Source of the DNA: a virus
IMG/VR virus record: IMGVR_UViG_3300038701_001548
Location: 1-36,327 of that record
Reading direction: 5' to 3' (one strand)
Length of the DNA: 36,327 nt
The notes beneath the pieces were generated by a model, which made no database searches, was not told the DNA's origin, and worked only from the letters and a program-made list of their open reading frames with translations. Shown here piece by piece: positions 7,001 through 31,165 of this stretch. Each line of letters starts with the position of its first letter. Within the stretch, counting starts at the first letter, position 1. The position numbers and the translations under genes are program-made.

Positions 7001-7340
7001 TGATATAAAAGGGGTACCACTAGATGAGTGGCAGTATGACCATTTGGTCACTCTGGCCGGACAGACCATTGAGTTAGATATTTGGCAAGACGGAAATCCG
7101 GCAAATCAGAAAACCATTTTGAACAATATGGTGAAATCTGATTTTTATAAAGAACGATCTGATGAGAATAAGTCAATGATGATAGCTCAAATACACAGGT
7201 CATTCAATCAAGCCGCGATACATGAGCTTAGGCGTTTAGATGAGGGCTTGAATGCAAAATTATTAAAACAAGAAGAAAATAAAGAAGCCGCGTTAATTGA
7301 TTTACAAGAGGCTATTGAAGCTTCAGAGGAGTTTAGGTAA
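4023..7340 (+). CDS. Large internal virion protein, T7 gp16-like
   Basis: This 1105-residue protein is the largest in the window and sits last in the ejectosome block. The N-terminal 60 residues are acidic and low in complexity. A helical Lys/Ala/Glu-rich segment lies at about 215-245. A central region (about 460-560) begins WWDSMTELYINSLLSGTK and contains several hydrophobic stretches, a style seen in large phage virion-associated proteins (LPD38-like domains). I see no convincing lytic transglycosylase motif, unlike T7 gp16. The stop overlaps the ATG of the tail fibre (GTAATGG). The DNA for residues about 10-60 is more GC-rich than its surroundings and partly resembles the PurZ linker at about 17.95 kb. 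Confidence 0.65.
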   Translation: MSDEEYTKYRLEADRQALSDEVRATLVPDGPADTGPGATSGEDDRIGIYDEDVSRDLPSLKFNEGEPDLSTLDADELSNMVFNRVFNGGLTDLDPNLEGFGSLTQGPGVSARQQIDEKLGTGFTKSKFGSSLVDIGILDVVPGVDFGLAIDDLATIESKKTSGLDVSFEEEFGARMAIPLSILGAGAAGKKAGGIVGKALKSVRNLFPKKLGVLEQLEQEAKAATDKANAAKEVTKKRQKENVTVTQAQSQQIGDELTGFYSWAGDDIAEYLPKKAMNINLENYEIAADVKATMVAVTDNINIPKDVKAWDDTSSAGQKLADDLGLDKAWLKKTYDKLGRVDEEVHAARVMLAQSSHSLRKMVDGYSPDMTASQKSLFLASVQNHVENMKYASGIVAAPGRALNSQKIKVAVKSEDIARIDEVMLEFGAGRVDELAKALSKADTPELLNSIAKRGVRSKWWDSMTELYINSLLSGTKTLAINATGNALFAFWQIPERALGGTISSLRAGAGMMGGTPQPIDRAYVGESMAMMYGMVEGVWDGLKIAGRSVRTGNPSVAGDPTRIEGVRNKAISSENLQLSGMMGGLADVTGAIVRTPTTVMLAQDEFFKHLGRRMEINRQAYSSAMSKGGSTRDKAVEILRYRSDVPDEGIEAANDFAKYITFQNELGPNGRKIQALTNTPISRFKIPAFKFIVPFVRTPINIFTAGAVDRNPVFAPLTNKWKQAMEAGGAEADMAFAKIGSGTAIGAFIAYQASQGNITGSGPSEPRQRKAWARAGYRPYSIRTQIGEEADGSPKYEWKQYSRVEPISFVVGAVADVIDFYKYYDQDDPTREGELTNITAMVVAAVAENTTNKTFMTGLSDFFNVMEDPKRYSERWIQRFASTVVPNAMRDLSVANDPYVREIDSIVQAIKAKVPGLSKDMPPKRNVWGEPRYHDDGWFLGARSTFLPVRISEESREPIDHEIVRLAVDGVKDPATGNVQVFRDALVEPPSRDIKGVPLDEWQYDHLVTLAGQTIELDIWQDGNPANQKTILNNMVKSDFYKERSDENKSMMIAQIHRSFNQAAIHELRRLDEGLNAKLLKQEENKEAALIDLQEAIEASEEFR

Positions 7341-8911
7341 TGGGAATACAAATCAATGATACAACTCCGTGGGTCCAGTACACACCTTTAGCCGCACAAG
7401 TTGTGTTCACTATCCCATTCGAATTTTTCGAAGATGACGACATTCAAATATACTTCGATGATGAGGAAACCCCAGAAAGCTCGTCCAATTACTCTTTAGT
7501 CGGTGCCAACACCAACGGAACGAAGGAAGCAACTTTCACAACTGCGCCTGAATCGTCCGGAGTTGTGAAATTGACTATTGTGCGCGACACTGAAGTTAAA
7601 CGTTCTTCTAATTTCGCCATTTCTTCAGATTGGACAGCCGACAACGTAAATAACGAACTAAATCGACTAACTATGATGGTCGCTGAACGCGAATTAGAAA
7701 GAGCAAGATCAGTTGAGTTACTTGATACTTTTGGTGGAACATTTTCTACAAAATTACCTGCTGATATTGATACTGCTAATAAAGTGTTGGGAGTCAATTC
7801 AAGTGGTGACGGATTTGAAATGTTTGATAGTCTATCAACTTCGGCCTCAAATGCAGCTGATAGTGCTGCTGCTGCTTTAGTGAGCGAGAATAACGCGGCC
7901 ACTTCTGAGAATAACGCGGCCACTTCTGAAACAAATTCATCTGTCAGTGCTGCCGCCGCTCAAGCTGCTGCTGATAGTGTAGCGTGGGAGGTAGTGACAG
8001 TTGTTGCTGGTGATAGCCCCGTCACGGCTGAAGCTGGGAGGATGTATGTTTGCACAACGACTGCTGGTGCTATTACTATCAATCTTCCTTCTATTGCTGC
8101 TGTAGGTGAGCCTACTTCTATTGCTGTCAGGAAAGAAACTGGCGATGCAAACGCTGTTACAGTTAGCCCTGATGGTACGGATGAAATAAATGGAACATCC
8201 TCATATGTAATTGACGGAACTTCCGCCCATAGTTTTTATGCTGATATTGACGCTACCCCAGATAATTGGGCTGGTATCAATATGGGAGGAACTCTCTCAA
8301 ATCCGTTCGTTGAATTGTTCGAAGATACTGTGGATTTTACAGCCAATATCTCAACGTCAGTTACTTTCGCGGGAAACATCTCTACTGAGAATGCTGCGTT
8401 TGTATCGTTCAATGGCCTAACTCAACACCATGATACTTATGCCATCTCAGGGCAAACTCTATCCTTTCACGCTAAAGGTGATCCCGGCACTCCTGCTGTT
8501 GTGCCAACAGGTACTGATACTATTGAGCTTCATTACTTTGAGACAGTGGCTATTGGTGTTCCTGCTGACGCCTCAGTAAGCGCTGCCAAATTAACAGGCC
8601 CCATGTACCAAGGAGCTTCTACAGATAACGATGGTTCATTTGATTTGTCTGCTGGTAATGATTTTCGGTGGACCCCTACTGGTGCCGATCAATTACAGTT
8701 CACAAATAAATCAGAGGGGCAACGGGGACAAATTCTTTTAGTTAATGCCTCTAATTATGCTATCACTTTTGAAGCTGATATTTACGGTCCTACAGATGCT
8801 GCTACTGATCTATCCGTTACGGGTACTTATTTAATTAGTTATTGGTGTACAGATGGGGTTGATGGAACTGATGTTTACATCTCCTACTCTGCTGCAATGG
8901 TGGATATCTAA
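7340..8911 (+). CDS. Tail fibre with T7-like N-terminal anchor
   Basis: This is a 523-residue receptor-recognition protein. Residues 1-130 resemble the T7 gp17 N-terminal domain, which attaches the fibre to the tail (PWVQYTPLAAQVVFTIPFEF near the start, then a DDEETP segment and DWTADNVNNELNRL). Residues about 165-215 form an Ala/Ser/Asn-rich stretch with a duplicated 7-residue unit (ENNAATS), typical of trimeric coiled-coil shafts. The remainder is beta-rich, with a generic fibre module at about 215-330 and no recognised enzyme. T7 gp17 is of similar size (553 residues). It overlaps both neighbours by one base (TAATG), so it is part of the late operon. The N-terminal assignment is firm; the receptor is unknown. 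Confidence 0.85.
   Translation: MGIQINDTTPWVQYTPLAAQVVFTIPFEFFEDDDIQIYFDDEETPESSSNYSLVGANTNGTKEATFTTAPESSGVVKLTIVRDTEVKRSSNFAISSDWTADNVNNELNRLTMMVAERELERARSVELLDTFGGTFSTKLPADIDTANKVLGVNSSGDGFEMFDSLSTSASNAADSAAAALVSENNAATSENNAATSETNSSVSAAAAQAAADSVAWEVVTVVAGDSPVTAEAGRMYVCTTTAGAITINLPSIAAVGEPTSIAVRKETGDANAVTVSPDGTDEINGTSSYVIDGTSAHSFYADIDATPDNWAGINMGGTLSNPFVELFEDTVDFTANISTSVTFAGNISTENAAFVSFNGLTQHHDTYAISGQTLSFHAKGDPGTPAVVPTGTDTIELHYFETVAIGVPADASVSAAKLTGPMYQGASTDNDGSFDLSAGNDFRWTPTGADQLQFTNKSEGQRGQILLVNASNYAITFEADIYGPTDAATDLSVTGTYLISYWCTDGVDGTDVYISYSAAMVDI
7886..7927 (+). repeat. Two tandem 21-bp units inside the tail fibre shaft
   Basis: A 21-bp unit beginning GAGAATAACGCGGCCACTTC occurs twice in a row with no mismatch and encodes two copies of ENNAATS. 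A degenerate third copy (GAAACAAATTC) follows. The unit length is three heptad-like steps per repeat, so copy-number change would lengthen or shorten the shaft without a frameshift. Confidence 0.9.
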
Positions 8912-9561
8912 TGACTACTAGAATTTCAAAAGGTCAGCTTGACCAAGATGTCATAGATTTTATTCTAGCACAAGGCGGAACTCCGTCATTTGCGGGTTTA
9001 ACAGGAAATGCGACAGATAACGCTAGCCTTGCTGGTGAGTTAAATGGCAAGTGGGATACCCCGGCCAACTCTGCAACTTTGTTAAGTATGTCAGCGGTTT
9101 TTACTGCTGCACTAAAAACGACATACGATAATGCTTGGGCCACTCCTGCGAATGCTGCTGTCCTTACCGCAACAGAAGAAAGCTTTACTACTGCCTATAA
9201 AGCTAGCCTTGATGGGTTACACACAGTGGCCTCTACAGGTCTTTATTCAGATTTAGAAAGCACAGATAAACCAGTCTACAGGCTCACAAATTTCACGGCT
9301 ACTGATGATCCTGACGCGAATGACGACACAGGTGCAGGATATGGGGTTGGCTCTCCTTGGTATAATGTTACCGACGATACCGCTTGGCTGGCTTTAGATG
9401 TAACCGCTGCTACTGCTGTCTGGAAACAAATAGACGCGGTCCAAGTATCAGATAAAGCTGATAATGGTATTACCACTGGTATAACGATTTGGAAGGGCAC
9501 AGCTGCTCAATTTGCAGCTATCACCCCCGCTGCGAACCAACTCTCAATTGTGATAGGTTAG
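8911..9561 (+). CDS. Putative tail fibre/tail appendage protein
   Basis: This 216-residue protein is rich in Thr, Ala and Asn. It carries a [20 protein letters not shown] motif at about residues 108-127. This 'G-x-Y-x-D-L-x-x-x-K-P' module is common in phage tail fibres and collars. The first 100 residues contain repeated short Ala/Asn phrases ([16 protein letters not shown]), suggesting a fibrous helical repeat. No enzyme motif is visible. It starts on the stop of the tail fibre (TAATG) and is followed two bases later by the next gene, so it belongs to the same adhesin block. A role as an auxiliary fibre or fibre-attached protein is inferred. Confidence 0.6.
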
Positions 9562-9562
9562 T

Positions 9563-10432
9563 ATGTTTGGAAACAGAGTAAAAGAAACCACAACAACCAC
9601 TGGAACTGGTGCGCTTACTTTAGCAGGTGCCGTTTCTGGGTTCAATTCTTTTGGCAGTCAAATTGCTGATGGAGATATTGTTGATTATCTGATCCTAGAT
9701 GGTGTAAATTCTGGAGATTGGGAAACGGGTGCTGGAATTTATACAGCGTCCGGAACTACGTTGGCTCGAACTGTTGTTGTTTCAAAATCAATATCAGGTG
9801 TAGTTTCTAATTTCCCTGCTTCTGGTATTTCTTTGGCTGCCGGAACTCACACGGTAGCTATTGCGCCAAAAGCCGAAAATGTGATGGGCGGGACCAATAC
9901 AGCAGCTTGGGACGAAGTATCGAACTTAGTCGAAGAAGGGCTTATGCCGAGCAATGTCTCGAACACAAAAGACACCTGCGGGCGAGGTAATTTATCTGCG
10001 TCTTTTTTTCCTGCGGTGTTTATTGTCCCGACAAAAATAACAAAATTAGGCATCTGGATAACGGTTGCGGATGCGGTTAATACCGAGAATAGAGTAGCGA
10101 TTTACGGCCTTGGTCCGAGCGGCATTCCTGGTCATCTCATTGCTGAGACCGGGGATTTAGATATGGCGACAGTCGGTGAGAAATTTGAGACATTATCGAC
10201 CCCAATTCTTCTTCCTGTCGGGATATATTGGTTAGCCCATAAGTACGCCGGAACCACTGCCAATGTTAGGGGGTGCGGACCGGGCGATTTTACCAATCCG
10301 TTTGGTTTTATGAAAGATAAGCGCCCGGCGTCTCTAAAAAAGTCTTTGGACGCGGGCGCTTTCCCCGACCCCGCCCCAACCAGCGGGTACACCTCTGAGG
10401 ACTATATTCATCCAGTGCCAATTTATGCGTAA
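9563..10432 (+). CDS. Putative tail protein with conserved N-terminal virion module
   Basis: This protein has 289 residues. Residues 1-110 begin [19 protein letters not shown] and continue through [12 protein letters not shown] and [10 protein letters not shown]. This arrangement recurs at the N-terminus of many phage tail-associated proteins. Residues about 130-289 form a separate beta-rich region with several Gly/Pro turns ([12 protein letters not shown]). It could be a receptor-binding or carbohydrate-binding module, but I do not recognise a family. It lies between two other appendage genes in the late operon. The N-terminal assignment is fairly safe; the C-terminal role is not known. Confidence 0.6.
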
Positions 10433-10441
10433 GGGTATATA

Positions 10442-10963
10442 ATGGGACAAGTTAATTTTATCGACAAAGGTATTCACCTCATTAGGCATGTAAATGCCCA
10501 AGGCTATCGCCTCAACCAAACCGACGGGGTTTGGCAAACACGGGATGGAGATGAGGATGCTGTAAATACTCTCATTGCAGAGTTTGACCCATTGCCCATA
10601 GCACAAGTTGAAAATATCAAAAAAGTCAAAGATATTGCTGAAGCAACAAGGCTTAGATTTATAACACCGGGTTCTGGTAAGAGTATGACGTATTTAAGAA
10701 AAGAACAGTCTGCCCGTGCATTTAAAGCTGCTGGGTATACGGGCGATGCTCCTGAAATGATCAAAGCAGTATCTATCGCTAACAATATCACTGCTAAAGC
10801 TGCTGCTGATTTGCTGATCGCTAAAGCAGATGCTTGGGAAAAGATTGGTGCCTTTATTGAGCAAATAGAAGAAGCTGCTACTAAAGCAATCGAAGAAGCT
10901 ATTAGCTACAAGGCTTGTTCAGTAATAGCTGAAGACGCTATTGAAACTTTAGAAGGTGTATAA
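10442..10963 (+). CDS. Putative tail fibre assembly chaperone-like protein
   Basis: This is a 173-residue soluble protein. The N-terminal 50 residues form a small beta-rich part (GYRLNQTDGVWQTRDGDE). The rest is a long alpha-helical, Ala/Lys/Glu-rich region starting at about residue 58, including ITPGSGKSMTYLRKEQSARAF. This arrangement resembles small chaperone or accessory proteins encoded after phage tail fibre genes. There is a ribosome-binding sequence (AAGGGTATATA) just before the ATG. The stop overlaps the start of the next small gene (TAATG). Function is inferred from layout only. Confidence 0.45.
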   Translation: MGQVNFIDKGIHLIRHVNAQGYRLNQTDGVWQTRDGDEDAVNTLIAEFDPLPIAQVENIKKVKDIAEATRLRFITPGSGKSMTYLRKEQSARAFKAAGYTGDAPEMIKAVSIANNITAKAAADLLIAKADAWEKIGAFIEQIEEAATKAIEEAISYKACSVIAEDAIETLEGV

Positions 10964-11136
10964 TGTCTTTTTGTGAAGAAGTTTTCGCCACTGTTCCTTT
11001 TGCCACTTCGCCAGGAGACAATATCTCTCTTACTGATGCGGTTTATTTTGGGAATGTAAAACCCGACGTAGTTTATTTTGAAAGTCAAGAAGCGGACAAA
11101 ATTTATTATGGACCAGATTTGGTGTATGAAAAATGA
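10963..11136 (+). CDS. Small protein of unknown function between tail genes
   Basis: A 57-residue frame runs from the ATG that overlaps the stop of the preceding gene (TAATG) to a TGA that overlaps the ATG of the following gene (ATGA). The overlaps on both sides leave little doubt that it is translated. It carries a triple 'VYF' pattern (DAVYFGN, DVVYFES, DKIYYGP, DLVYEK) repeated about every 10 residues, which could be a short beta-solenoid or strand repeat. It is acidic and has no transmembrane segment. A tail-tip or appendage cofactor for the next gene's adhesin is a guess from position. Confidence 0.7.
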   Translation: MSFCEEVFATVPFATSPGDNISLTDAVYFGNVKPDVVYFESQEADKIYYGPDLVYEK

Positions 11137-11996
11137 GTATTTTTAATCCAGCTATTTTCAGTAAAAGATACACGAGGGCCACTGGTGGTGATGCCCCTCC
11201 TATTGACGTAGGAGATTATCGTATTCATACCTTTCTTAGTAGCGGTAACTTTGTTGTCGAGCGTGTGGGTAACGATAACACCGTAGAATATCTCGTCATC
11301 GGTGGAGGAGGTGGAGGTGGTGGTAATGGCTCATCGTCCGGGGGTGGGGGTGGAGGAGGTGGTGGTTATAGAAGCAACGTGCTTGGAGACCTATCCGGTG
11401 CCGGTTCAGTTGCCGAACCTGTAATGTTAATCACCAAAGGAACATTCCCTGTTGTCGTAGGTGCTGGGGGCAGTAGTGCTTCAAACGGTAATAACAGTAG
11501 TTTTAACGGTATAGTTTCAATAGGCGGTGGGGCTGGTGGTTCGTTAGGTGGAGTTGCTCCTATTGGTGATGGGTTTGTCGGTGGTTCATCGGGCGGTTCA
11601 AATGGTAGTTCTACAACACTTGTACCAGGGACAGTAAATCAAGGTTCAGCTGGTGGTCGTGGAACTGGTGCAGGGTTCGTAGCAGGTGGAGGTGGGGGTG
11701 GTGCCGGGGGTATTGGTAACAACTGGTCTCCCCCAGACGGTGGAGGCGGTCTATCAAGTAGTATTGATGGTTCTGCCACCATAAGAGGTGGTGGCGGTGG
11801 TGGTGGTACTAATGCTGGCACTGGTGGTGCAGGTGGTGCAGGGGGAGGTGGTGCAGGGGCTAGTGTAACACCAGCAGGTATTTCAGGAACAGCCAACACT
11901 GGTGGGGGTGGTGGCGGTGGTGGTCAGACATCCACAGCAGTTGGTGGTGCTGGCGGCTCCGGTATCGTCATCATTAGATATAAATTCAAGGGGTAA
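11133..11996 (+). CDS. Glycine-rich tail adhesin
   Basis: This 287-residue protein has about 50 N-terminal residues of ordinary composition (an attachment part). It then has a glycine-rich domain starting at the phrase VEYLVIGGGGGGGG and repeating Gly runs of 5-9 residues separated by short loops. It ends with GSGIVIIRYKF, a closing strand shared by many phage Gly-rich domains. Such domains can form polyglycine-II helix bundles, as in the distal gp38 adhesins of some T-even-like phages, where the loops between Gly runs bind the receptor. The opposite strand shows a long proline-rich frame that is only its shadow. Its location after the fibre genes suits a receptor-binding tip protein. Host range could vary through these loops. 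Confidence 0.75.
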   Translation: MSIFNPAIFSKRYTRATGGDAPPIDVGDYRIHTFLSSGNFVVERVGNDNTVEYLVIGGGGGGGGNGSSSGGGGGGGGGYRSNVLGDLSGAGSVAEPVMLITKGTFPVVVGAGGSSASNGNNSSFNGIVSIGGGAGGSLGGVAPIGDGFVGGSSGGSNGSSTTLVPGTVNQGSAGGRGTGAGFVAGGGGGGAGGIGNNWSPPDGGGGLSSSIDGSATIRGGGGGGGTNAGTGGAGGAGGGGAGASVTPAGISGTANTGGGGGGGGQTSTAVGGAGGSGIVIIRYKFKG

Positions 11997-12001
11997 GTAT
12001 C

Positions 12002-12313
12002 ATGAGCTTAGACGAAGTAAGTAAAGCTATTGGAAATCTACAGTCTAAGGCTGAAGATAGTATCAAGCAGCGTGAAATACTATCAAAAAAGATAGATGAA
12101 GGCAATAAAGCTGTGGCGGATTTAACCTCGATAATAAAAGAGCATGTGGCTACTGTCGAGCTGCGCTTAGCTTCTGGATCAGAACAAATGCAAGAAAATA
12201 AAAAAGACATTGAAGGCTTAAAAAAATTCAGAACACGTGTTTATATTGCTGTAGCTGGAACTACTGGAACAGGAACAATTGCGGCTGTTTTAACTAAATT
12301 GGGATTAAAATAA
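12002..12313 (+). CDS. Small coiled-coil membrane protein of the lysis cassette
   Basis: This 103-residue protein has a charged helical N-terminal part of about 75 residues (coiled-coil heptads in AIGNLQSKAEDSIKQREIL and onward). A basic stretch (KKFRTR) follows, then one hydrophobic segment at about 80-100 (VYIAVAGTTGTGTIAAVL). That topology, with a soluble coiled coil and a single C-terminal membrane anchor, occurs in phage accessory lysis proteins. It starts five bases after the adhesin stop and overlaps the next gene by one base (TAATG). A holin, antiholin or spanin-like function is possible, but no lipoprotein box is visible. Confidence 0.5.
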   Translation: MSLDEVSKAIGNLQSKAEDSIKQREILSKKIDEGNKAVADLTSIIKEHVATVELRLASGSEQMQENKKDIEGLKKFRTRVYIAVAGTTGTGTIAAVLTKLGLK

Positions 12314-12768
12314 TGTTGATCGAATGGTTCAGGTTTGTGTCAAATGATGTTGCTACGTTGAGCATTATTTCCATTGACAAACAGTTTTTTGGGTTTGGCC
12401 TTGAAGACGCGTATCAAAAGATTAAAATCCCTGGCAAGACAAGAATAGCTGCAGGTACGTATGACATCCATTTACGCGACGCTGGGGGCATGAATATCAG
12501 GTATGCAAAGAAGTTTTCTGACTTCCACGAAGGAATGTTATGGGTTCAGGATGTTAAAAACTTTGAGTGGATTTATCACCACATAGGCAATAATGCAAAA
12601 CACACCGAAGGATGTGGGCTTGTTGGTTATGGTTGTAATCGCGACACCATGACAATTCAAACCAGTACTAAAGCGTATAGTGATTATTATAAAATAATTG
12701 TCGATGCTGCACGGCGCAAAGAACTTAAAGTGACTTACATTGATGGAGACAGGAAAAATGATTTTTAG
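12313..12768 (+). CDS. DUF5675-family protein, candidate cell-wall enzyme
   Basis: This 151-residue protein matches the pattern of DUF5675, a family found in phage lysis regions. The signature is an HxGN followed by a TxGCxLxG stretch, here HIGNNAKHTEGCGLVG at about residues 91-106. The N-terminal part has FGFGLEDAYQ and KIPGKTRIAAGTYDI. The conserved His and Cys, and resemblance in layout to L,D-transpeptidase-like folds, suggest a peptidoglycan-acting enzyme, but activity is unproven. It lies between the coiled-coil membrane gene and the holin, and overlaps the holin gene, whose start (12758) lies before its stop. No other endolysin candidate is visible in the window, which raises the chance that this is it. 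Confidence 0.6.
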   Translation: MLIEWFRFVSNDVATLSIISIDKQFFGFGLEDAYQKIKIPGKTRIAAGTYDIHLRDAGGMNIRYAKKFSDFHEGMLWVQDVKNFEWIYHHIGNNAKHTEGCGLVGYGCNRDTMTIQTSTKAYSDYYKIIVDAARRKELKVTYIDGDRKNDF

Positions 12769-15243: not shown

Positions 15244-16642
15244 TTTTTACCCCGTCAACTACTGCTTTTGCTACATTATCCTTGCGCAATAACGCGTCAC
15301 CCGCTGCTGCTTCAATTTCAGAAGAAATCAAATCAACATATAATACGAATTCTGCGTCCTGCCCGTGTCGGTGTGGTCTATCTTCGGCTTGTATCCTCGC
15401 ATCATAATCATAGGTCGCTTCAAAAAATGCCACAGTGCTGCATCTCATGATGTCATTACCTAATAAAGTGTGTCCATATTTTGCTGAAGTTATTTGACAA
15501 ACTATAACTCTTGATGTGTTATCGTGTTCAAACTTATCTTTTTGTTCTTGTAACTCTTCTTCTGTCATTTGTCCTTTAATCCATGATGGATTAAATTCAT
15601 CCAAGTCTTTTATTAATTTGTTAACAGAATGTCTAAAGAAAGCAAAAACTATAAGCTTACCTTCAATCTCGCCCAACAACTCTTTAATTGCTTCGGTTTT
15701 AGGTATTTTTCCTCCAATTTCTATCGCTTCCCCTTCCTCGTTAATAATGAAACCAGATGAAATTTGTTGCAACTTCATCATCTGAGTTACGACCATTCCT
15801 GCTTCAATCTCGCTAACTTCTTCAGAAAAGCCTTTTATTTCTGTAAAGAAATCCTTTTTCATGTTTAAATAGTGTTTTTCTTGGTTTTTACTTAACCCGA
15901 CCATACGTTTTGTGTGTATTTTTGGGGGGAGGTCTGTCCAGTCTTTCTTTTTGGCCCTAAATGAATGTGGTTGTAACATTTCATTCAACGCTTCTTCGTT
16001 TTTGGCCCCAACTATCTGTTTACCTCGATATCCACCCATCTTACAATATTTGTTACGGAAAGCAAAATAATTAAAATTATTGATCGCCCCTATAAACCTC
16101 AATTGTGCCCATAAGTCATGCGGCCCTTGAGAAACAGGCGCTCCAGATAAAATGCGTCTAAACGGAGAGAACTTACTTAGAGCTATTAGGTTTATAGTTC
16201 GTTTTCCATTATGTTTTTTGATGGATATGCTCTCATCCAACGTAAACATACAACGGTATTTTTTCATCACTTCTTCTGCGGCCAAAACTGCCTTTGCTCG
16301 TCCAACAGCGAAACCCTCATAGTTAATGATCCAGATGAAGGGTTTGTTTTTCGGTTTAGGGGTCTCGGGCCACTTAACGACTTCTACTTTTTCACTTAAA
16401 CCCCAATTTCTTATTTCATTGGACCATGTTTGTTTTAAACTCATGGGACAAACAACTATTAAACCTCTCACTTCATCTTTAACAAATAACGAAATAAATT
16501 CGTTGAGTACAACAGCTGTTTTCCCTAAACCCATTTCCATGAAATACGCGAAACCGGGCAACATCCACGCCCGATTTGCTGCTACGGTCTGTACTTCGTA
16601 GGGTTCCCCCTTAAGAACCCACATTTTCAACATCCGTATCAT
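15221..16642 (-). CDS. SNF2-like superfamily 2 helicase
   Basis: This protein has about 473 residues. Walker A MGLGKT is at residues 37-42, then VVCPMSLKQTW (motif Ia), TLDES at 134-138 (motif II), and LSGAPVSQGPHDLWAQLRFI (motif III) at about 167. The second RecA lobe has LIVFAFFRHSVNKLI and the motif VI region RIQAEDRPHRHGQ near residue 425. This is the arrangement of phage SNF2-like DNA translocases, which act in replication, recombination or fork remodelling. The start is uncertain: ATGs at 16642, 16633 and 16622 are all possible, and the last has the best upstream GGATG. It overlaps DatZ upstream and the primase downstream, so the three genes are probably co-translated. Confidence 0.85.
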   Translation of the reverse strand: MIRMLKMWVLKGEPYEVQTVAANRAWMLPGFAYFMEMGLGKTAVVLNEFISLFVKDEVRGLIVVCPMSLKQTWSNEIRNWGLSEKVEVVKWPETPKPKNKPFIWIINYEGFAVGRAKAVLAAEEVMKKYRCMFTLDESISIKKHNGKRTINLIALSKFSPFRRILSGAPVSQGPHDLWAQLRFIGAINNFNYFAFRNKYCKMGGYRGKQIVGAKNEEALNEMLQPHSFRAKKKDWTDLPPKIHTKRMVGLSKNQEKHYLNMKKDFFTEIKGFSEEVSEIEAGMVVTQMMKLQQISSGFIINEEGEAIEIGGKIPKTEAIKELLGEIEGKLIVFAFFRHSVNKLIKDLDEFNPSWIKGQMTEEELQEQKDKFEHDNTSRVIVCQITSAKYGHTLLGNDIMRCSTVAFFEATYDYDARIQAEDRPHRHGQDAEFVLYVDLISSEIEAAAGDALLRKDNVAKAVVDGVKNGFQEGS

Positions 16643-17183
16643 TAGTTGGTATTCTAGAAGTAACTTCCATACCTAAATGTGGCGCAACGTACTTATCCCA
16701 CAAAGTATTTTTTGTTTCCCTATCTTCTAACCAAGGGAGGTTTTCCCATGCTCGATTTAATCTCTCCATTGAGTTGACTAAAAAAGGGGTAACTGATTTA
16801 TTTCCTAATTCTATTTCATCTGTCAAAAAGAAACATTCATCTAATAAATCAGCACATTTTATGATAGATTTGATTTCATCAGATAGGATCAATTGTGGGC
16901 CGAAACGTCTTTGTGTTTCGCTGAACCTGTACGCTCCCATTTTTTCTTTGTCCGAAATGTTTCTTTTTACTGGCCCCGGAATATCAGACATAAAACATTC
17001 ATCGATGTCATGGTACAATGCGGCATGGGCCAAAAAACCTTCGTCAAATCCGAGCCAATAACCTAATTGTTCCGCGTAAATGGCCACGTAAAAAGAATGT
17101 TCCGCCACGGATTGTGTTCTAATTGTTCTTGCGATGCCCCATCTTGGAACAAAAGCTAAATCTCTGTATTCTCGTTCAAACAT
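16611..17183 (-). CDS. datZ: DatZ-like HD-domain dATP triphosphohydrolase
   Basis: This 190-residue HD-domain protein starts at the ATG with a strong GAGGAG six bases upstream; the longer in-frame start lies in the terminator and is unlikely. Metal ligands are His29 (SVAEHS), His58-Asp59 (ALYHDIDE) and Asp112 (KCADLLDE). The N-terminal FVPRWGIARTIR keeps Trp15 and Ile17. In the cyanophage S-2L enzyme the equivalent Trp and Ile shape a pocket that accepts adenine and excludes the 2-amino group. The predicted reaction is dATP to deoxyadenosine plus triphosphate, clearing dATP so that aminoadenine is used instead. It sits just downstream of the PurZ gene and an intrinsic terminator. A YfbR-type 5'-nucleotidase is the alternative, but the PurZ neighbour favours DatZ. 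Confidence 0.82.
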   Translation of the reverse strand: MFEREYRDLAFVPRWGIARTIRTQSVAEHSFYVAIYAEQLGYWLGFDEGFLAHAALYHDIDECFMSDIPGPVKRNISDKEKMGAYRFSETQRRFGPQLILSDEIKSIIKCADLLDECFFLTDEIELGNKSVTPFLVNSMERLNRAWENLPWLEDRETKNTLWDKYVAPHLGMEVTSRIPTNDTDVENVGS

Positions 17184-17231: not shown

Positions 17232-17669
17232 CTAGTTAAACGGGTAAATCGGGTTCCCCAATTCACGTGTTCGTTTGTTGTCTTGGAAGAATTTAACCCC
17301 TGTTTCTTTGTGAGACCATATATAAGAAACAAGACGGTTGTTTTCTGTCCAATTGCCGTGGAAAACGAAGTCTTTTTTAGTAACGGTATATTCTTTGCCA
17401 TCAATTTTCATCGTGACTTCTTTGTCTGTCCCAATATCTGGTTCAGGTTCTGCTTTTTTGATGACGTTGAATTCTCTCCACGCTAAATCGCGCAATTTTG
17501 AGTCCACTACAAATGGGACTAGCCCACGTATAACTGGCAACTCGGGAAGACCTGATTGTGTGAATGCGTCAGGGTCTTCCGGGTCAAGTTGTCTGATAAC
17601 CTCAACCAACTTCTTGATTTTTTCTTCTTGCGGGATTTCTGGTAATGGTTCGTTGCTTTCTTCAGTCAT
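17232..17669 (-). CDS. Conserved phage protein of unknown function, downstream of purZ
   Basis: This 145-residue protein starts at an ATG whose ATGA overlaps the stop of the PurZ fusion, with AAGGA eight bases upstream. It is acidic at the N-terminus (EESNEPLPEIPQEEK). The recognisable middle is LPVIRGLVPFVVDSKLRDLA and the C-terminus is KDFVFHGNWTENNRLVSYIW. No transmembrane segment or known catalytic motif is visible. Tight coupling to purZ suggests a role in the same nucleotide or DNA-replication process, but I do not recognise a family and make no functional claim. Confidence 0.7.
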   Translation of the reverse strand: MTEESNEPLPEIPQEEKIKKLVEVIRQLDPEDPDAFTQSGLPELPVIRGLVPFVVDSKLRDLAWREFNVIKKAEPEPDIGTDKEVTMKIDGKEYTVTKKDFVFHGNWTENNRLVSYIWSHKETGVKFFQDNKRTRELGNPIYPFN

Positions 17670-19099
17670 AGTAATTTTCCTTTCATAACATTCCACGCTA
17701 TCATCATCGCGAAATTTGCTACATCAGCGGCTTCAAGAAAAATCTCAATAAAGTTGCCACCACGGATCGCGTCTTTCAACTCGTCCACTTCATCAAGTAA
17801 TCTTTTAAATAAAACGTCCACATTGCGTTCTTCCCATCCGCCTTTATGGTCATTTTTTCTGAGTTTGTGTTCCATTGCATGGGCCAGCATCATGACCTCG
17901 CGACGTATGGGGGCAGGGGTCTCGATATGGTCGCTCTCCCCGGACGTCGCATCGCGTCCTGGTCTAGATACCCTAGGCGCTATAGGCGTAGCGGACGTCG
18001 TGTCCTCTACGCCTCCTGGGGGCTTAGCAATAGTCCCGCCCGTCACATAGGGTTTAACGTTTGCCTCTTTTGGTCCAGTACCCAAATAAATATCTGGATT
18101 GATTTGTTCCTCATGATTGACGGCGGATATTTTGCGCAACAAGTTTAACAATTCTTCTTGTTCACAGTAATTAGCGAAATTTAAAAATATGCTTGCTGGT
18201 CTTACACAGGTTAACGATCTATGATATTGAATTTCAGAGAATGTTGCTACTCTCCTTACCCGTTTAGTAACGGTGGTTCTTTCAGGGCCAAGTTGTAAAT
18301 CGTCCCACGTTTTTTCAACCGAATCAGGATAGAATGGACCACTTGTTCCTATTTCTTTTCCTTCTTCATCAACAATGTTCCCTACCCGTATGGGGTAAGT
18401 CCTTAGGGTCATATGCACATTACCTAAGAATGAAGGGTGAACGCCCGCATCTGACATACCTTGAGCTACCGACACTTCGCGTGACGTACAATAAGGATAA
18501 GAAAGGCCCCCATTTAAACCTAAATCCACACCTTGCGGTATTTCCATAAATACCGTCGACCCTTGTTTCATTTTTAAATTTAAATCGACATCTGCTATAG
18601 AAAAATTAGGAGTGTTTTTGTCTGGGAAATTTGGGAAAAAGTCTCCAGCTAGAATGCCGCTGCGTTTAACTTTATCGGCTAGAGCAGCGCCGACCCCTTT
18701 TTGGGTGGATGCTAATTTAGTGGCAGCAGAATCCCTATGTTTTTCACTATGCCTATGCATCGGTAGGATTATGGCCGCACGAGGATGGATATAAATTCTT
18801 TCGGGGTTAACTTTTAATTCAGTAATTTCTTTTATTAAAAGTTCTGGGTCGATGATCGATCCTGCCGACAAGAAAATTTTACTTTTTTCATTCAGCACTC
18901 CGGAAACCGGGAGATGGAAACATATAAAACTACGTTCCCTATCGATGTAAGTATGTCCAGCATTTGGGGCCGCGTTTGTAACTGCCAAATCAAAAGTGTC
19001 GCGCTTCGCCATGTAACCAGAATAAAGACCTTTTCCGGTTGAGCCAAATTGTCCGTCTATGATGCAATTAAACTTCCCTTTTGCGAAAAATTCAGTCAT
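17666..19099 (-). CDS. purZ: PurZ-MazZ fusion: aminoadenylosuccinate synthetase joined to a nucleotide pyrophosphohydrolase domain
   Basis: This is a single 477-residue frame. Residues 1-352 are an adenylosuccinate synthetase homologue: the P-loop GQFGSTGKG (16-24) replaces the bacterial GQWGDEGKGK, so the catalytic Asp of PurA is Ser20, while PNAGHT (45-50) keeps the catalytic His49. That Asp-to-Ser change marks phage PurZ, which joins dGMP and aspartate to make the precursor of dZMP. Residues 353-398 are a Pro/Thr/Gly linker. Residues 399-477 have HKLRKNDHKGGW and a MazG-type ExxE...ExxD set (Glu437, Glu440, Glu456, Asp459), like the dATP/dGTP pyrophosphohydrolase MazZ that yields dGMP. The ATG overlaps the upstream stop. 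Two Met codons (403-404) after GAGG could permit separate translation of the second domain. Confidence 0.88.
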   Translation of the reverse strand: MTEFFAKGKFNCIIDGQFGSTGKGLYSGYMAKRDTFDLAVTNAAPNAGHTYIDRERSFICFHLPVSGVLNEKSKIFLSAGSIIDPELLIKEITELKVNPERIYIHPRAAIILPMHRHSEKHRDSAATKLASTQKGVGAALADKVKRSGILAGDFFPNFPDKNTPNFSIADVDLNLKMKQGSTVFMEIPQGVDLGLNGGLSYPYCTSREVSVAQGMSDAGVHPSFLGNVHMTLRTYPIRVGNIVDEEGKEIGTSGPFYPDSVEKTWDDLQLGPERTTVTKRVRRVATFSEIQYHRSLTCVRPASIFLNFANYCEQEELLNLLRKISAVNHEEQINPDIYLGTGPKEANVKPYVTGGTIAKPPGGVEDTTSATPIAPRVSRPGRDATSGESDHIETPAPIRREVMMLAHAMEHKLRKNDHKGGWEERNVDVLFKRLLDEVDELKDAIRGGNFIEIFLEAADVANFAMMIAWNVMKGKLL

Positions 19100-19352
19100 T
19101 TTTATCTTCCTTCAATTGACGTGATGCTAGGGTTGCGTATCCGGCGATGTCATCCCAATGATCATGGAGAGTGTGATCACCAGCAATGATCCTAGCTATC
19201 TTTGTTGAAATTAAATCCAAAGCTTCAAGTAACACGGGGTCCGTGATTTTTTCTCGTGCTATTGCTTTGATTGCTTGAGATACGCCCGATAATTCTGCAA
19301 AATCGCCATGAACTGAACCTCTTTCTTCTAAAAGTTCCTCAATCAACCCCAT
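19092..19352 (-). CDS. DUF6378-like phage protein
   Basis: This is an 86-residue soluble helical protein. The segment EELLEERGSVHGDFAELS at the start, then IAGDHTLHDHWDDIAGYATL near the end, match a small family frequent in phage nucleotide-metabolism regions (DUF6378 pattern). Its conserved Glu and Asp residues resemble those of all-alpha nucleotide pyrophosphohydrolases, so a MazG-like relation is possible but unproven. The frame is open much further upstream, but that part shadows the nuclease gene, so I place the start at the ATG for MGLIEELL. No good ribosome-binding site is seen; translation may be coupled, as the start overlaps the end of the nuclease gene. Its stop overlaps the ATG of the PurZ fusion. 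Confidence 0.65.
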   Translation of the reverse strand: MGLIEELLEERGSVHGDFAELSGVSQAIKAIAREKITDPVLLEALDLISTKIARIIAGDHTLHDHWDDIAGYATLASRQLKEDKND

Positions 19353-19752
19353 AGATGATTCTGCGTATGATCGCGTCGATGTTCCAGGTTTCCCCTCTTC
19401 GTTTTGTTTGGATAAGGGTTCCATGGTCTTCGACATGGGTTGCATCGGCGCTTGTTCCAACCCAAAGTTCCCAATAGTTAGTTCGAATTTTAATACACAC
19501 TGCCCATCCGACATAACCCCCAACTCTGCAGTGCTTCCTAATCCACCTTCTTTGTAATTCAGTAAGCTTAATTTTCTGCCCACGGGATGTTGTATATTTA
19601 AGTTCCACCCATGCAAGTTGAAACTGAGGTGCTTTAAACCACGTATCAGGACGTCCTTTGTTGTGGTCTGCTGTGTTGGCTTCTGCGTGGTATCCAAGTT
19701 GTTTGGCATCTTTCATTAACTCCGATCTAAATGAATTTTCATTGGTGGCCAT
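19339..19752 (-). CDS. PD-(D/E)XK (VRR-NUC-like) nuclease
   Basis: This 137-residue protein has a compact nuclease core: FRSELMKDAKQLGYHA helix, then GRPDTWFK (Asp36) and WVELKY (Glu50, Lys52), which form the PD-(D/E)xK signature. A basic helix KLTELQRRWIRKH and VGGYVGWAV follow. Small proteins of this type in phages act on branched or structured DNA, for example in Holliday junction or recombination processing. It follows the DNA polymerase gene after four bases and has AAGGA nine bases before its ATG. The motif is clear; the exact DNA substrate cannot be told. Confidence 0.78.
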   Translation of the reverse strand: MATNENSFRSELMKDAKQLGYHAEANTADHNKGRPDTWFKAPQFQLAWVELKYTTSRGQKIKLTELQRRWIRKHCRVGGYVGWAVCIKIRTNYWELWVGTSADATHVEDHGTLIQTKRRGETWNIDAIIRRIIYGVD

Positions 19753-19756
19753 GATT

Positions 19757-21529
19757 TTAATCCTTCAACCAATTTGTCCCGAATGAAGCTTCCTCCCAAT
19801 TAATTCCAGTTTCTGAGTCAACTGCCATGGGCACATTCATCTGAAATACATCGTCCGGCCCAAATGACTCCATAATTTCTTTTGCACGTTTGTCTTGTTC
19901 TTCACAACCATATGGTACGAACCAATCTAACTCATCATGCACCTGTAAACGGAGAGTACAGTCTCCCCCTTGTGATTGAAAATACTCTTCTACTTCAACC
20001 ATTTTCAATTTTGTGATGTCAGCACTGGACATTTGAATAACAGCATTTCCGGCTTTGTATGCGGCCCTAAGATCAGGGAAACGACGCCGACGACCCAATT
20101 TAGACCGAACATACCCTCTTGTTCTGCCCCAATGTTCACATTTCTTTAAAAATTCTTTCGCTTCTGGCACCATTACGTCATATCTTCTACGGTACTCTTT
20201 CGCTTCTGGCACTGGTATTCCTAAAGAATTTGCCAGAGTTGGCACACCCATTCCGTACACCATTCCAAGGTTCATTCTTTTGGCTGTCGGGTCCCGCTCA
20301 ACGTCAAGCATTTTAGCAATAGAAGAGTGGATATCAATAGGTGGTTCCGATCTATATCCATCGACAAGCATGGGCGCTCCAGTGTAGTCCGTAAACACTC
20401 TGAACTCTTGTTGTGAATAATCATTTGCCGACCAATAAGTGCCTTTTTCAGCTTCAAATATTGATCTGAAGATTGGTGCGAGAATTTTGTCACGTTTTGG
20501 TACCTGCTGCATGTTGGGGTCAGAAGACGATAACCTTCCGGTCACTGTGCCGAAGTCATCCATTTTTAGTTGATTAAACGTACAGTGTACTCGCCCTTGC
20601 CACAAATGCCTTTCCAATAAGGGGTTGATAAAGGAATTTTCCATGTTAGTAATTTTCCGCGCTTGGATAATTGAACTTCCAAGTCCGAATGTTTTAAGCC
20701 AGCCCTCAGTGAATGAGGGGTTCCCCTTGGGAGTGAGAGGCCAATTCGTGTTCCCGGTGTCTGTAAATAATTCAAGTAATTTGGGGCGCGATCTAACATC
20801 TTCGATACCGATTGGAAGCATATTCGCGACAATCTCAAGTTTTGAGGACATCGCGTCTCTGACTTTTTCAAGTACCTCTTCGTTGACCGGGACACCGCGT
20901 CGCTCCATGTTGAATAAAATTCGTATAATTCTGCATTCGATACCGTGCAACAAAGATAATCCGTCGTTTTCGATGTAATCATGTTGTTTTTTCCATACTT
21001 GCCAAGTAGAAGTACCATCACCTTCTGCATAAGAAACACCTATTGGGTCATTACCTTCTAATTTATGAAAATGTTCCATTTGTTTGTATGTAGGCTGACC
21101 ACCAAATTTTTGGGCCAAATATTCGTACATGTCCTTAGATTTTTTAACTTGTACGTTCATCACAGTGGAACATTTTTCTAGATTGTATGCGCCTTGGTTT
21201 TCATCGATCAGTGATTGGTTAATTTGGGTGCACTCGATAGGGCCGTTTATTTCCAAATCGTGGGACTTGCACATATGCATATCAAATTTGAAATTGTGGC
21301 CGATTTTCTTTATGTTGAAATTTGATAACAGGCTAGAGACCCACTTCTCTACGGGTTCTGCATCTAGGTTACCGCCTCCCTCATGCCGTACAGGGAGATA
21401 GAGCGTCTCGTCAGAACCTTCGCCCCACGTGACCACGTGACCTACGATTTTATTTGTTTTCCAATCTAAACCGTCTGTTTCACAGTCATAAACAATTGCT
21501 TCGGCTTGTGATAAATCGGGTAAATCCAT
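19757..21529 (-). CDS. dpoZ: Family A DNA polymerase with proofreading domain (DpoZ-like)
   Basis: This 590-residue replicative polymerase starts at the ATG preceded by GAGAGGA; an in-frame ATG 30 bases earlier lacks a site. The 3'-5' exonuclease domain is intact: ExoI DCETDG (15-20), ExoII HNFKFD (78-83), ExoIII YAEGD (167-171). Polymerase motifs are A DYSQQEFR (370-377), B with Lys417 and Tyr425, and C VHDE (530-533). There is no 5'-3' exonuclease domain. Leu421 sits where E. coli Pol I has Phe762. PolA-type enzymes with exonuclease encoded beside PurZ are called DpoZ and favour incorporation of aminoadenine. Without phylogeny, DpoZ rather than generic phage PolA is an inference from the neighbours. 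Confidence 0.85.
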   Translation of the reverse strand: MDLPDLSQAEAIVYDCETDGLDWKTNKIVGHVVTWGEGSDETLYLPVRHEGGGNLDAEPVEKWVSSLLSNFNIKKIGHNFKFDMHMCKSHDLEINGPIECTQINQSLIDENQGAYNLEKCSTVMNVQVKKSKDMYEYLAQKFGGQPTYKQMEHFHKLEGNDPIGVSYAEGDGTSTWQVWKKQHDYIENDGLSLLHGIECRIIRILFNMERRGVPVNEEVLEKVRDAMSSKLEIVANMLPIGIEDVRSRPKLLELFTDTGNTNWPLTPKGNPSFTEGWLKTFGLGSSIIQARKITNMENSFINPLLERHLWQGRVHCTFNQLKMDDFGTVTGRLSSSDPNMQQVPKRDKILAPIFRSIFEAEKGTYWSANDYSQQEFRVFTDYTGAPMLVDGYRSEPPIDIHSSIAKMLDVERDPTAKRMNLGMVYGMGVPTLANSLGIPVPEAKEYRRRYDVMVPEAKEFLKKCEHWGRTRGYVRSKLGRRRRFPDLRAAYKAGNAVIQMSSADITKLKMVEVEEYFQSQGGDCTLRLQVHDELDWFVPYGCEEQDKRAKEIMESFGPDDVFQMNVPMAVDSETGINWEEASFGTNWLKD

Positions 21530-21539
21530 TGTTTCCTCT

Positions 21540-21734
21540 CTAAGAAATTGCTTGTTCATATATTCTGTTCAGGTTTTTCCACATTTTGCCCGATATAAAA
21601 ATCTCGGACCCAATTTCCTCATATTGCGATCTTATGTCAGAAATAAACTCTTTATTCCATCCACGCAAATCGCAATCGCGTATCGTGTTTAGAATTTCCA
21701 TGAGGCGTTCTTCTTCCTCAGTGTTTATTGACAT
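21540..21734 (-). CDS. Small acidic protein of unknown function
   Basis: This 64-residue protein starts at an ATG preceded by a good GGAGAG, six bases away; a longer in-frame start is a shadow of the HNH gene. It is charged and helical (INTEEEERLMEILNTIRDCD), with a C-terminal IFISGKMWKNLNRIYEQ. No membrane segment or known motif is seen. It lies between the HNH endonuclease gene, whose last bases it overlaps, and the polymerase gene. A link to the polymerase is only positional. Confidence 0.65.
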   Translation of the reverse strand: MSINTEEEERLMEILNTIRDCDLRGWNKEFISDIRSQYEEIGSEIFISGKMWKNLNRIYEQAIS

Positions 21735-27119: not shown

Positions 27120-27540
27120 GTCCTGCATAAACAGAATAGGGTTGCACGGAACGCATGACCCAAGAAACGAGGAGTACGGAAGGAAACACGCGCCCACACA
27201 CGCGCGATCCGAACTAGGCTACAACTTGGAATGTGATCGAAGGATTGGGGAGAGGGTGCCGAGAACCGAGACCAGTGGCTAAATTTAATTATCAAGTTGA
27301 TTGGTACTAATATTATTTAATGAGGTACTCGGATACCGCGTCACAAACCCCTTTACATCCTATACGGCATACAGTTCTGAAGTGCGCATGGCGTCGTCCC
27401 ATAGTACGAGGGTGCCGCATCCCGAGCGTCTGCAGAAGGGACCCAGGGACCCGAAACAAGAATAGAATTTTTGCGCATATATACAGGAGGGGTCACGGAT
27501 ATAAGTTTTACGGGCCACGTGCATCGAATCTAGGAATACT
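27120..27540. other. Non-coding divergent region, part 1 (candidate origin region)
   Basis: About 420 bp between the early minus-strand promoter and repeat B contain no supported gene. I see an AT-rich stretch (27281-27320, with AATATTATTTAAT), a GC-rich patch with ACGCGC repeats around 27190, a duplicated GAGGGTGCCG (about 27254 and 27404) and small hairpins such as GGTA-CTCGGA-TACC near 27322. Divergent transcription, an AT-rich core and neighbouring inverted repeats are what an origin region would look like, but no initiator protein site is identifiable. Confidence 0.5.
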
Positions 27541-27874
27541 AACTACAGGTTGATCAATAAGAACTACGGGTCTGACTACGTATGTGACTACGGGTTTAAA
27601 TAATATCCAAACCTCCCGTCCCTCGGGGCCTCTGGGGTCTGACTACGTATCGACTACGTATCGAGAGGGGGTCTCTCTGCGGAGATATGCCAAAAGAAGG
27701 AAGGAAAGAAAAGACACGTCCCTCCTTCCTTTTTTAAAAACTCTCAGAGGGGGGGAGGAGATACGTAGTATATGTAGTAGTAGGGGCCTTCAGGCCCCGT
27801 CCTTCTTTGGCTCTGGATATGATTTCTAATACGTAGTCGATACGTAGTCACATACGTAGTACCTGTAGTTCTTA
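27541..27874. repeat. Structured repeat copy B: concentric inverted repeats at the divergent junction
   Basis: Nested exact arms, from outside in. AACTACAGGT (27541-27550) pairs with ACCTGTAGTT (27861-27870), and TAAGAACTAC (27558-27567) with GTAGTTCTTA (27865-27874). An 18-bp arm at 27575-27592 pairs with 27843-27860. CGGGGCCT (27624-27631) pairs with AGGCCCCG (27792-27799). A 21-bp arm at 27641-27661 pairs with 27829-27849; its inner part also matches 27761-27769. AAGGAAGGA (27697-27705) pairs with TCCTTCCTT (27723-27731), which is followed by TTTTTT. GGGGCC-TTCA-GGCCCC is a further local hairpin. Copy A has the same order of elements. No gene is supported inside. It sits just upstream of the late-arm promoter. 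Confidence 0.88.
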
Positions 27875-27898
27875 AATTTCCGAAGCTTTCTGATATAC

Positions 27899-27927
27899 TT
27901 GTATCTTATATCTCTTGATGTTATAAT
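27899..27927 (+). promoter_or_regulatory. Promoter for the structural (late) arm
   Basis: TTGTAT (27899-27904) and a consensus TATAAT (27922-27927) are 17 bases apart. Transcription would start at about 27934, practically on the ATG at 27936. An alternative -10, TATACT at 27894-27899, would leave about 30 bases of leader but has a weak -35. It lies 25 bases after repeat B. It is the only clear promoter seen for the plus arm. Confidence 0.65.
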
Positions 27928-27935
27928 GAGTTATT

Positions 27936-28325
27936 ATGAAAAGCACAATTGAATACCATGAAATTCAGACCCATATTAAATGGTTCATTAAAACGGAGTA
28001 CGGGCATCTGACCGAGAGGCAAGAGGTGTTTGCCTGGAGGTATGCATTACATGGGCGCGGTATTCGGGCCATAAGGGAGGCATTCAATAGAATTAGCACC
28101 AATTCCCAGAACCAAGCATCAAATCGTATGATGAAAAAACAAAAAGTTCTGCGACGCATTGAAAAATTACTGGACATGCACAGAAAGTCTGAAATTGATC
28201 TGACTGAGGGACCCTGGAAGCATTATGGGGACAAGTTAGTAGAGAAATATAACCCAGAACCTATACCGAACAGGAAAATGAGTTTCGAAAAATTGATGAA
28301 AGCGGTTTCTGAAAATGAACGATGA
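27936..28325 (+). CDS. Terminase small-subunit-like protein 1
   Basis: This is a 129-residue protein. Residues 24-80 (LTERQEVFAWRYALHGRGIR through MKKQKVLRRIEKLLDM) follow the layout of small terminase DNA-binding domains: a 'T-x-R/K-Q-x-x-F' start, helix-turn-helix, then a '(K)V-x-x-R-I-x-x-L' helix. The C-terminal part is basic (NPEPIPNRKMSFEKLM). The gene overlaps the next one, also terminase-like, by 11 bases. It is the first gene of the plus arm. There is no obvious ribosome-binding site, and the promoter leaves almost no leader, so it may be leaderless. It could be a second DNA-recognition subunit or a regulator derived from one. Confidence 0.6.
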   Translation: MKSTIEYHEIQTHIKWFIKTEYGHLTERQEVFAWRYALHGRGIRAIREAFNRISTNSQNQASNRMMKKQKVLRRIEKLLDMHRKSEIDLTEGPWKHYGDKLVEKYNPEPIPNRKMSFEKLMKAVSENER

Positions 28326-28803
28326 AATCACTAGACACGATTTGAACACGATAGTGGACAATGGATTAGATTTGTCAGATGTAGAGATCGTGGATTTACC
28401 TATGGTCCCACACACTATAACAAGAAAACAGTTTTTGTTCATCGAAAAGTTTATGGAGTTAGAATACGACGCGGAGAAGGCTGTTATTTTGGCTGGGTAC
28501 AGAACACGGGACGCGAAGAAAACCGCAGAAACTCTGATGAAACACCCACTCATATCCGCAGAAATCGTTAGGCGGATGACTGCAATACGTGATAAATTTA
28601 ACCTCACGCAGGAAGAAGTCATGAAAGAGTTATGGTCAAGTGCGAAAGAATACGGGGAGGGTGCTTCACATAATGCGAGAGTATCTGCGCTAAGCCATCT
28701 TACTAGAATTTTGGGCGGGTTTGATAAAGGAAATGCAAATCAGAAACAAGTGCCAGTTGCAGTGAACATGGATTTCAGTTCAATTGATGAGGATGAGGAT
28801 TAA
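28315..28803 (+). CDS. terS: Terminase small subunit
   Basis: This 162-residue protein matches the Terminase_2 pattern: TRKQFLFIEKFMELEYDAEK at about 40, then AVILAGYRTRDAKKTAETLM and KHPLISAEIVRRM. An extended helical part and a negatively charged tail (SSIDEDED) follow. The small subunit recognises the packaging site and feeds DNA to the large subunit. It overlaps the gene before it by 11 bases and the next by one base (TAATG). The large subunit is encoded one gene later. Confidence 0.85.
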   Translation: MNDEITRHDLNTIVDNGLDLSDVEIVDLPMVPHTITRKQFLFIEKFMELEYDAEKAVILAGYRTRDAKKTAETLMKHPLISAEIVRRMTAIRDKFNLTQEEVMKELWSSAKEYGEGASHNARVSALSHLTRILGGFDKGNANQKQVPVAVNMDFSSIDEDED

Positions 28804-29066
28804 TGACAGTAACTAATTTAGATAACCCGCACAGGTTAATCTTGTCCAATCAAGATCGTGAGGATATGATCAATCTTTTAAAAAACACCATTTCGGCGTT
28901 AGAAGAAGGTGAAGAAATAACTTCATGCGCGGTGGTCATGATAAATAAAGGCACTAATGAAACTTTGACCGACTGGTTTAGGGGTCCAGGTTCAACAATA
29001 GCAGAAGTCTCTGGTGCTGTGGGGCTTTTACAGTATGAAATTATAGAATTTTGGAAGAATATCTAA
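28803..29066 (+). CDS. Small protein of unknown function between terminase genes
   Basis: This 87-residue protein starts on the stop of the small terminase gene (TAATG) and ends on the start of the large one. It has an acidic helix (QDREDMINLLKNTISALEEG) and then a strand-rich part (TSCAVVMINKGTNETLTDWF followed by RGPGSTIAEVSGAV). The C-terminal part resembles short proteins found in other phages in early or packaging regions. The tight spacing shows co-translation. A role in packaging is likely but unproven. Confidence 0.65.
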   Translation: MTVTNLDNPHRLILSNQDREDMINLLKNTISALEEGEEITSCAVVMINKGTNETLTDWFRGPGSTIAEVSGAVGLLQYEIIEFWKNI

Positions 29067-30550: not shown

Positions 30551-31011
30551 AAACGACTTGGTATGTGGTGTTTAAAAACTCCGAAAGGCGTAGATGGTGG
30601 GACATATTTACCAGAGACGGGTTTAGGCATTGTTTTGCGTTCACCAACCATAAAGGTATGTGGGTATCGGTTGAATCTCTTATTTGGCGTACACAAGTGG
30701 AATTGGTCCCACATTCAGTGTATAAAGAATATAATGTAGAAGGCATGCTTGCGTATTATATGGTTACGGGCGACAATACTATTGTTCAAGTCAGATCGAC
30801 CCCAAAACCTCATGAGCGTTCCAAAATAATTCCCTTCTCATGTGTCTCCATGGTAGAATCACTGTTAGGGATAGAGAAACATTTTTGGACCCCATATGGT
30901 CTATATAAACACTTGTCGGAGATGAAGAATGGCGACGTTATTTGGAGGAGGTCCAAAACCTCAGAGGGTCGACAATTCGAAACAGATCGAAGAAGCCAAC
31001 AAACGAGCTAA
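30487..31011 (+). CDS. Unknown protein with a possible permuted papain-like fold
   Basis: This 174-residue protein starts inside the end of the terminase gene, with AGGA five bases before the ATG, and overlaps the next frame by 83 bases. The pattern is WDIFTRDGFRHCFAFTNHKG at about 38-57 and then IIPFSCVSMVESLLGI at about 117-132, with HFWTPYGLYKHL after. A conserved His before a CVS-type Cys and a 'TP-x-x-L-x-x-x-L' end is what permuted NlpC/P60 or YiiX-type cysteine hydrolases show. The function would be peptidase or amidase-like. This is an eye-based inference with no alignment. Confidence 0.5.
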   Translation: MEQQHENETEQGEVQFQGDSLETTWYVVFKNSERRRWWDIFTRDGFRHCFAFTNHKGMWVSVESLIWRTQVELVPHSVYKEYNVEGMLAYYMVTGDNTIVQVRSTPKPHERSKIIPFSCVSMVESLLGIEKHFWTPYGLYKHLSEMKNGDVIWRRSKTSEGRQFETDRRSQQTS

Positions 31012-31165
31012 ACAAGCAGAAGATGAGCGTCGCCAGCAACAGGAAGAGTTGATCGCATCTCGTAGAGCGAAACGATTAGGCGCTGCGGGAAGATTATCAT
31101 TAGTCGGTGAACGTGACGATGAGGACAAATTGACCGGAATCCCAACCAAAAAGAAAGTCGGGTAA
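30929..31165 (+). CDS. Small charged protein before the portal gene
   Basis: This 78-residue protein has an N-terminal FGGGPKPQRVDNSKQIEEAN, a long coiled-coil-like stretch rich in Gln, Arg and Glu (ERRQQQEELIASRRAKRLGA) and a short C-terminal tail ending TKKKVG. It overlaps the preceding gene by 83 bases in another frame and its stop (TAA) abuts the portal ATG. Small proteins in this slot are common in T7-like phages but unnamed. It may assist procapsid assembly. Confidence 0.6.
   Translation: MATLFGGGPKPQRVDNSKQIEEANKRAKQAEDERRQQQEELIASRRAKRLGAAGRLSLVGERDDEDKLTGIPTKKKVG

Follow-up and report, generated by a model that had tools for sequence, protein, structure and literature searches.

A putative PurZ-MazZ-2 fusion protein in a virus with the gene content of a Z-DNA phage

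In this paper we describe a gene in which a PurZ domain and a MazZ-2 domain share a single open reading frame. The gene lies at positions 17666-19099 on the minus strand of a viral sequence record 36,327 bases long, which we call the window. This gene probably specifies a single bifunctional enzyme, made by a Z-DNA phage and leading from dGTP through dGMP to succino-dZMP. A first-pass annotation had proposed one open frame uniting the two domains, and its exact coordinates hold, on the minus strand and without an internal stop. The frame has 477 codons and a stop, opens with an ATG that is preceded by an AAGGAAG motif, and is matched by the profiles of both domains. The domain bounds given in that annotation needed some adjustment: PurZ had been placed at residues 1-352 and a MazG-like domain at 399-477, whereas we find PurZ at 1-351, a linker at about 352-395 and, at 396-477, a domain that is specifically of the MazZ-2 kind. 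The fusion would be a new variant within a known pathway, and its frame is known so far from one assembled sequence.

The PurZ half (18047..19099, minus strand) is an intact PurZ, and it is nearer to PurZ than to PurA both by sequence and by fold. The NCBIfam PurZ model matches residues 11-297 of the fusion with an E-value of 1e-71, scoring 241 bits where the curated cut-off is 300; the best PurA model reaches 153 bits. PDB 6FM1 is matched with an E-value of 1e-47, and among solved structures the PurZ proteins of phiVC8 and S-2L are closest in sequence. Ser20 is found where PurA has its catalytic Asp. An alignment of 203 distinct PurZ sequences has 47 columns with at least 95% conservation, and the fusion is unchanged in every one; the aligned positions of the dGMP pocket given for S-2L (PMC8342488) also seem to be preserved in it. 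We infer that this half would ligate dGMP to aspartate.

The C-terminal domain (17669..17914, minus strand) is, by its sequence, an NTP-pyrophosphohydrolase of the MazZ-2 variant and not an S-2L-type MazZ-1. Single-sequence scans detect it weakly (NCBIfam 0.006, PHROG 8e-6), and a profile of 45 relatives leads to the MazG-like protein AF_0060 (PDB 2p06, E 8e-12). The MazZ-2 profile matches the domain with an E-value of 1e-28. A MazZ-1 profile made from S-2L and SH-Ab recovers both of these proteins and matches no ORF in the window. No other ORF of the window matches the MazZ-1, MazZ-2 or DUF5664 profiles, in agreement with the earlier remark that a separate MazZ gene is not seen. The residues Glu437, Glu440, Glu456 and Asp459 had been numbered correctly; they make up the acidic metal-binding motif ExxE...ExxD, are conserved in 99% of 87 relatives and, together with Asn462, are nearly invariant. 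No position of the fusion was equated with Arg83 of S-2L in the alignments we made. MazZ-2-like domains also turn up in 13 records where PurZ was not detected (L006, L007, L098 and L105 among them), the nearest being 52% identical to the domain of the fusion, so the domain is not confined to Z phages and its substrate cannot be read from the sequence alone. No activity assay for any member of MazZ-2 was found in the Z-phage literature searched. Another MazZ-2 (L012:2584-2994) carries a Cys-rich, zinc-ribbon-like extension at its N-terminus.

The AlphaFold2 model of the fusion (39 rows) contains both folds, joined through a linker that is predicted to be disordered. Its mean pLDDT is 85, the PurZ part is confident, and residues 354-395 have a pLDDT below 50. 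The MazZ-2 domain is modelled as all-alpha, with helices at 396-418, 427-447 and 450-472. The top Foldseek match of the model is S-2L PurZ with dGMP, followed by phiVC8 PurZ and PurZ0; the MazG-like structures 2yxh and 2p06 are also found, at a probability of 1.00 with weak E-values. The linker (17915..18046, minus strand) is rich in Pro, Ser, Thr and Gly, and it is stop-free with 78% disorder-promoting residues in the fusion frame only. Its GC content is 0.63, a level that just one other stretch of the window reaches, at 11639-11960 (about 0.63 per 138 bases). RNA structure over the linker is not notable (z of -1.8 in the window and -0.06 in the sister phage described below).

A relative of the window, L009, is its sister in both the PurZ and the MazZ-2 trees (support 88/88 and 98/71), and the contig is found almost identically in two metagenomes (L009/L010). 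Along about 9 kb the genes of the two phages stand in one order, with PurZ about 50% and MazZ-2 74% identical. Unlike in the window, purZ of the sister stops at a TGA and the GTG of mazZ-2 is in a different frame, which gives two proteins unless there is frameshifting. At L009:5075-5240, the GTG that opens mazZ-2 follows one base on from the purZ TGA, in the +1 frame; this mazZ-2 may be a separate gene or a frameshift product. Its N-terminal tail is disordered and rich in Ser, Thr, Pro, Ala and Gly, and has a 21-base tandem repeat before the MazZ-2 domain. In the mazZ-2 frame the tail aligns with the linker of the window, and the GC content of both (0.71 in the tail) is far above that of their genes. 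Its GTG aligns with codon 352 of the fusion, a GTG that reads GTGA (18044..18046, minus strand), which argues that the fusion arose in place. Most simply, codon 352 is a relict mazZ-2 start, possibly one that is still used. From two adjacent genes in the same orientation, purZ would have entered the mazZ-2 frame, the old GTG start becoming codon 352 and the disordered tail becoming the linker.

The same junction raises the question whether the fusion exists outside the assembly. It reads ATGTGACGG, and a one-base change just before it would give a purZ-frame TGA overlapping the GTG. Because the fusion is only one base from an ordinary overlapping stop and start, a single-base assembly or sequencing error is the main rival explanation: a spurious base in AAACCCTAT before the GTG would have joined the frames, and the true purZ TGA would overlap the GTG of a separate mazZ-2 as GTGA. 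Overlaps of the xTGA type end about 108 of the 242 purZ genes examined, and the sister genes are separate and in different frames, both of which fit such an error. However, GTGA is expected by chance at about a quarter of GTG codons, the error would need to lie in a stretch of some 10 bases, and seven neighbouring genes align between the window and its sister without a frameshift. We regard an artefact as unlikely, while recognising that the one-base distance cuts both ways: it makes fusion easy to reach in nature, and an artefact easy to produce.

Internal initiation had been suggested at Met403 and Met404. Such initiation is plausible, but these codons are not the best candidate, as GTG352 aligns with the start of the sister mazZ-2. 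The two ATG codons (17888..17893, minus strand) have a GAGG 5 bases before ATG404, a motif that is not conserved in L009, and the sequence before GTG352 shows no suitably spaced SD-like motif. It is plausible that some free MazZ-2 is made from GTG352 or ATG403/404. In a stronger form of this idea the protein would be fused on paper only, with internal starts or cleavage of the linker giving most of the MazZ-2 activity as free protein. The alignment of GTG352 with a real start position, the GAGG motif and the predicted disorder of the linker are all consistent with this, but given the lack of a good motif at GTG352 and of conservation at ATG404 we think it quite unlikely.

The surrounding genes help to place the fusion. 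On its strand the order is purZ, mazZ-2, one small gene for a protein without known function (17232-17696) and then datZ. The DatZ-like HD phosphohydrolase (16611..17183, minus strand) matches the PHROG dATP triphosphohydrolase with an E-value of 1e-20 and a DatZ profile with 1.9e-36; its ORF was listed from a GTG at 17225, but translation more likely begins with the ATG at 17183. A DpoZ-like family A DNA polymerase is found at 19757..21559 (minus strand; NCBIfam DpoZ E 1.6e-101), for which the DpoZ model is the best of all PolA models, although its 341 bits fall short of the cut-off of 500. The same strand also encodes an SNF2-type helicase and a PrimPol/D5 primase. PurZ, DatZ and DpoZ together point, by gene content, to a Z-DNA phage. 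Structural genes on the plus strand at 46-12768 and 27320-36230, for an internal virion protein, a head-tail adaptor, a tail tubular-like protein and a terminase, suggest a podovirus.

Directly upstream of purZ there is a gene for a DUF6378-like protein (19092..19709, minus strand), which matches Pfam DUF6378 below the cut-off (E 4e-4) and a profile built here with an E-value of 1e-20. Homologues are found in 61 of the 203 distinct PurZ loci, mostly together with MazZ-2 and 29 times immediately before purZ; L001:11487-11987 is an example outside the window. The protein is modelled as a confident four-helix bundle (pLDDT 95) with invariant K, R and D residues. We considered that this protein (P0006) might be a hidden second MazZ and rejected the idea: it has no profile link to MazZ-2, and structure searches gave no convincing solved relative. 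It is a possible unrecognised member of the Z cluster.

For an estimate of how rare the fusion is, we surveyed PurZ in IMG/VR scans, one bacterial-genome scan and phage records, taking the best 80 loci per scan. Among the matches listed there are 259 distinct near-full PurZ sequences, of which 102 have a separate MazZ-2 ORF directly downstream; eight of these neighbours are in the purZ frame, yet with a stop between. Fusion of PurZ to MazZ-2 is seen only in the window, in one of the 259. The statement that PurZ and MazZ are separate genes where both occur holds for all other PurZ loci examined among the matches listed, and IMG/VR may contain further rare fusions beyond the best 80 loci per scan. 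As a control, 16 ORFs with the known DUF5664-MazZ-1 fusion were picked up in the same way. GenBank phage records match in 217 cases, and both halves are covered only by vB_OspP_OH, as separate genes. A single-protein scan of IMG/VR gave no close relatives, and a junction pattern with indels allowed had no match there either. A megablast of 10 kb against phages found no match, plasmids had no site covering both halves, and bacterial genomes had eight PurZ-like loci with no fusion. One apparent fusion (L242:2983-4386) was rejected: the 117-residue extension of its purZ is an out-of-frame read-through into the next gene, brought about by a deletion that shows when near copies are compared, and it advises caution over apparent fusions. 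When separate PurZ and MazZ-2 rows were aligned jointly with the fusion, MAFFT misplaced them, and these alignments were excluded from our conclusions. No published PurZ fusion was found in the Z-phage literature searched, which took in few subscription papers.

By family assignment the two domains would carry out consecutive steps of the Z pathway, as had been supposed, and both look intact. The chemistry of PurZ and of S-2L MazZ has been described (PMC8342488). By analogy with their families, the MazZ-2 half would strip pyrophosphate from dGTP to give dGMP, and the PurZ half, with its residues intact, would join dGMP and aspartate, with ATP or dATP, into succino-2-amino-dAMP. DatZ would remove dATP and DpoZ would polymerise. 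Host enzymes would take succino-dZMP on to dZTP. With PurZ dimers seen in crystals and the active site of S-2L MazZ lying between two chains, the two MazZ-2 halves of a PurZ dimer could pair. Fusion would set a 1:1 ratio and keep the source of dGMP near its user, and the internal starts may add free MazZ-2. Since the linker is predicted to be disordered, we would expect proximity and a fixed 1:1 stoichiometry at most, rather than a tunnel. Tentatively, and as a possibility more than an expectation, the dGTP-hydrolysing half may pass its dGMP to the PurZ half within a single molecule by kinetic coupling or channelling, possibly with free MazZ-2 from the relict GTG, so that the phage would balance the dGTP needed for DNA against the dGTP converted to dZTP.

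The bifunctional reading is favoured by the single ORF, the conserved residues, the two modelled folds, the order purZ, mazZ-2, datZ as in vB_OspP_OH and phiVC8, the position of MazZ-2 after purZ in 102 other loci among the matches listed, the homologous junction in the sister and the lack of another MazZ in the window. It is weakened by the single sequence, the one-base distance from separate genes, the differing base-contact residues of MazZ-2 and MazZ-1, the occurrence of the domain family without PurZ and the lack of a good SD before GTG352. That the C-terminal domain is instead a general or dATP-directed dNTP pyrophosphohydrolase, with the fusion coupling pool cleaning and not consecutive steps, would fit the base-contact residues at which MazZ-2 differs from MazZ-1 (PMC8342488), the reported activity of SH-Ab MazZ on dATP and dGTP (PMC8342488, PMC12884076) and the 13 records where PurZ was not detected, but it seems very improbable with DatZ already present for dATP, MazZ-2 so often directly after purZ, and a fusion to PurZ itself, which argues for a shared step. 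If the bifunctional protein is real, it would be independent 'Rosetta stone' evidence that MazZ-2 acts directly upstream of PurZ, and a single-chain route from dGTP to a committed Z-DNA intermediate whose two-step coupling is directly testable. It would also mean that adjacent Z-cluster genes can fuse through the loss of one overlapping stop.

Fusions of nucleotide-pool enzymes are known from other Z phages, namely DUF5664-MazZ-1 (SH-Ab 15497), the MazZ fusion of PMBT28 and DmtZ-DutZ of Wayne (PMC8342488, PMC12884076). Unlike the fusion in the window, those described in these papers do not involve PurZ, and MazZ-1 (DUF550) is a different MazG subfamily. Vibrio phage phiVC8, with PurZ and p26, has the same families as the window and the same order of purZ, mazZ-2 and datZ, but the genes are separate and the MazZ-2 is just 31% identical. 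Czernecki et al. (PMC8342488) divided MazZ into MazZ-1 and MazZ-2, and both p26 and the vB_OspP_OH protein fall with the latter. In the Ochrobactrum phage vB_OspP_OH purZ (p32) is closed by a stop codon and mazZ-2 (p33) starts at an ATG of its own, and there is no linker; like the two halves of the fusion, its genes belong to these two families, follow this order and stand side by side in one frame, with a MazZ-2 that is 43% identical.
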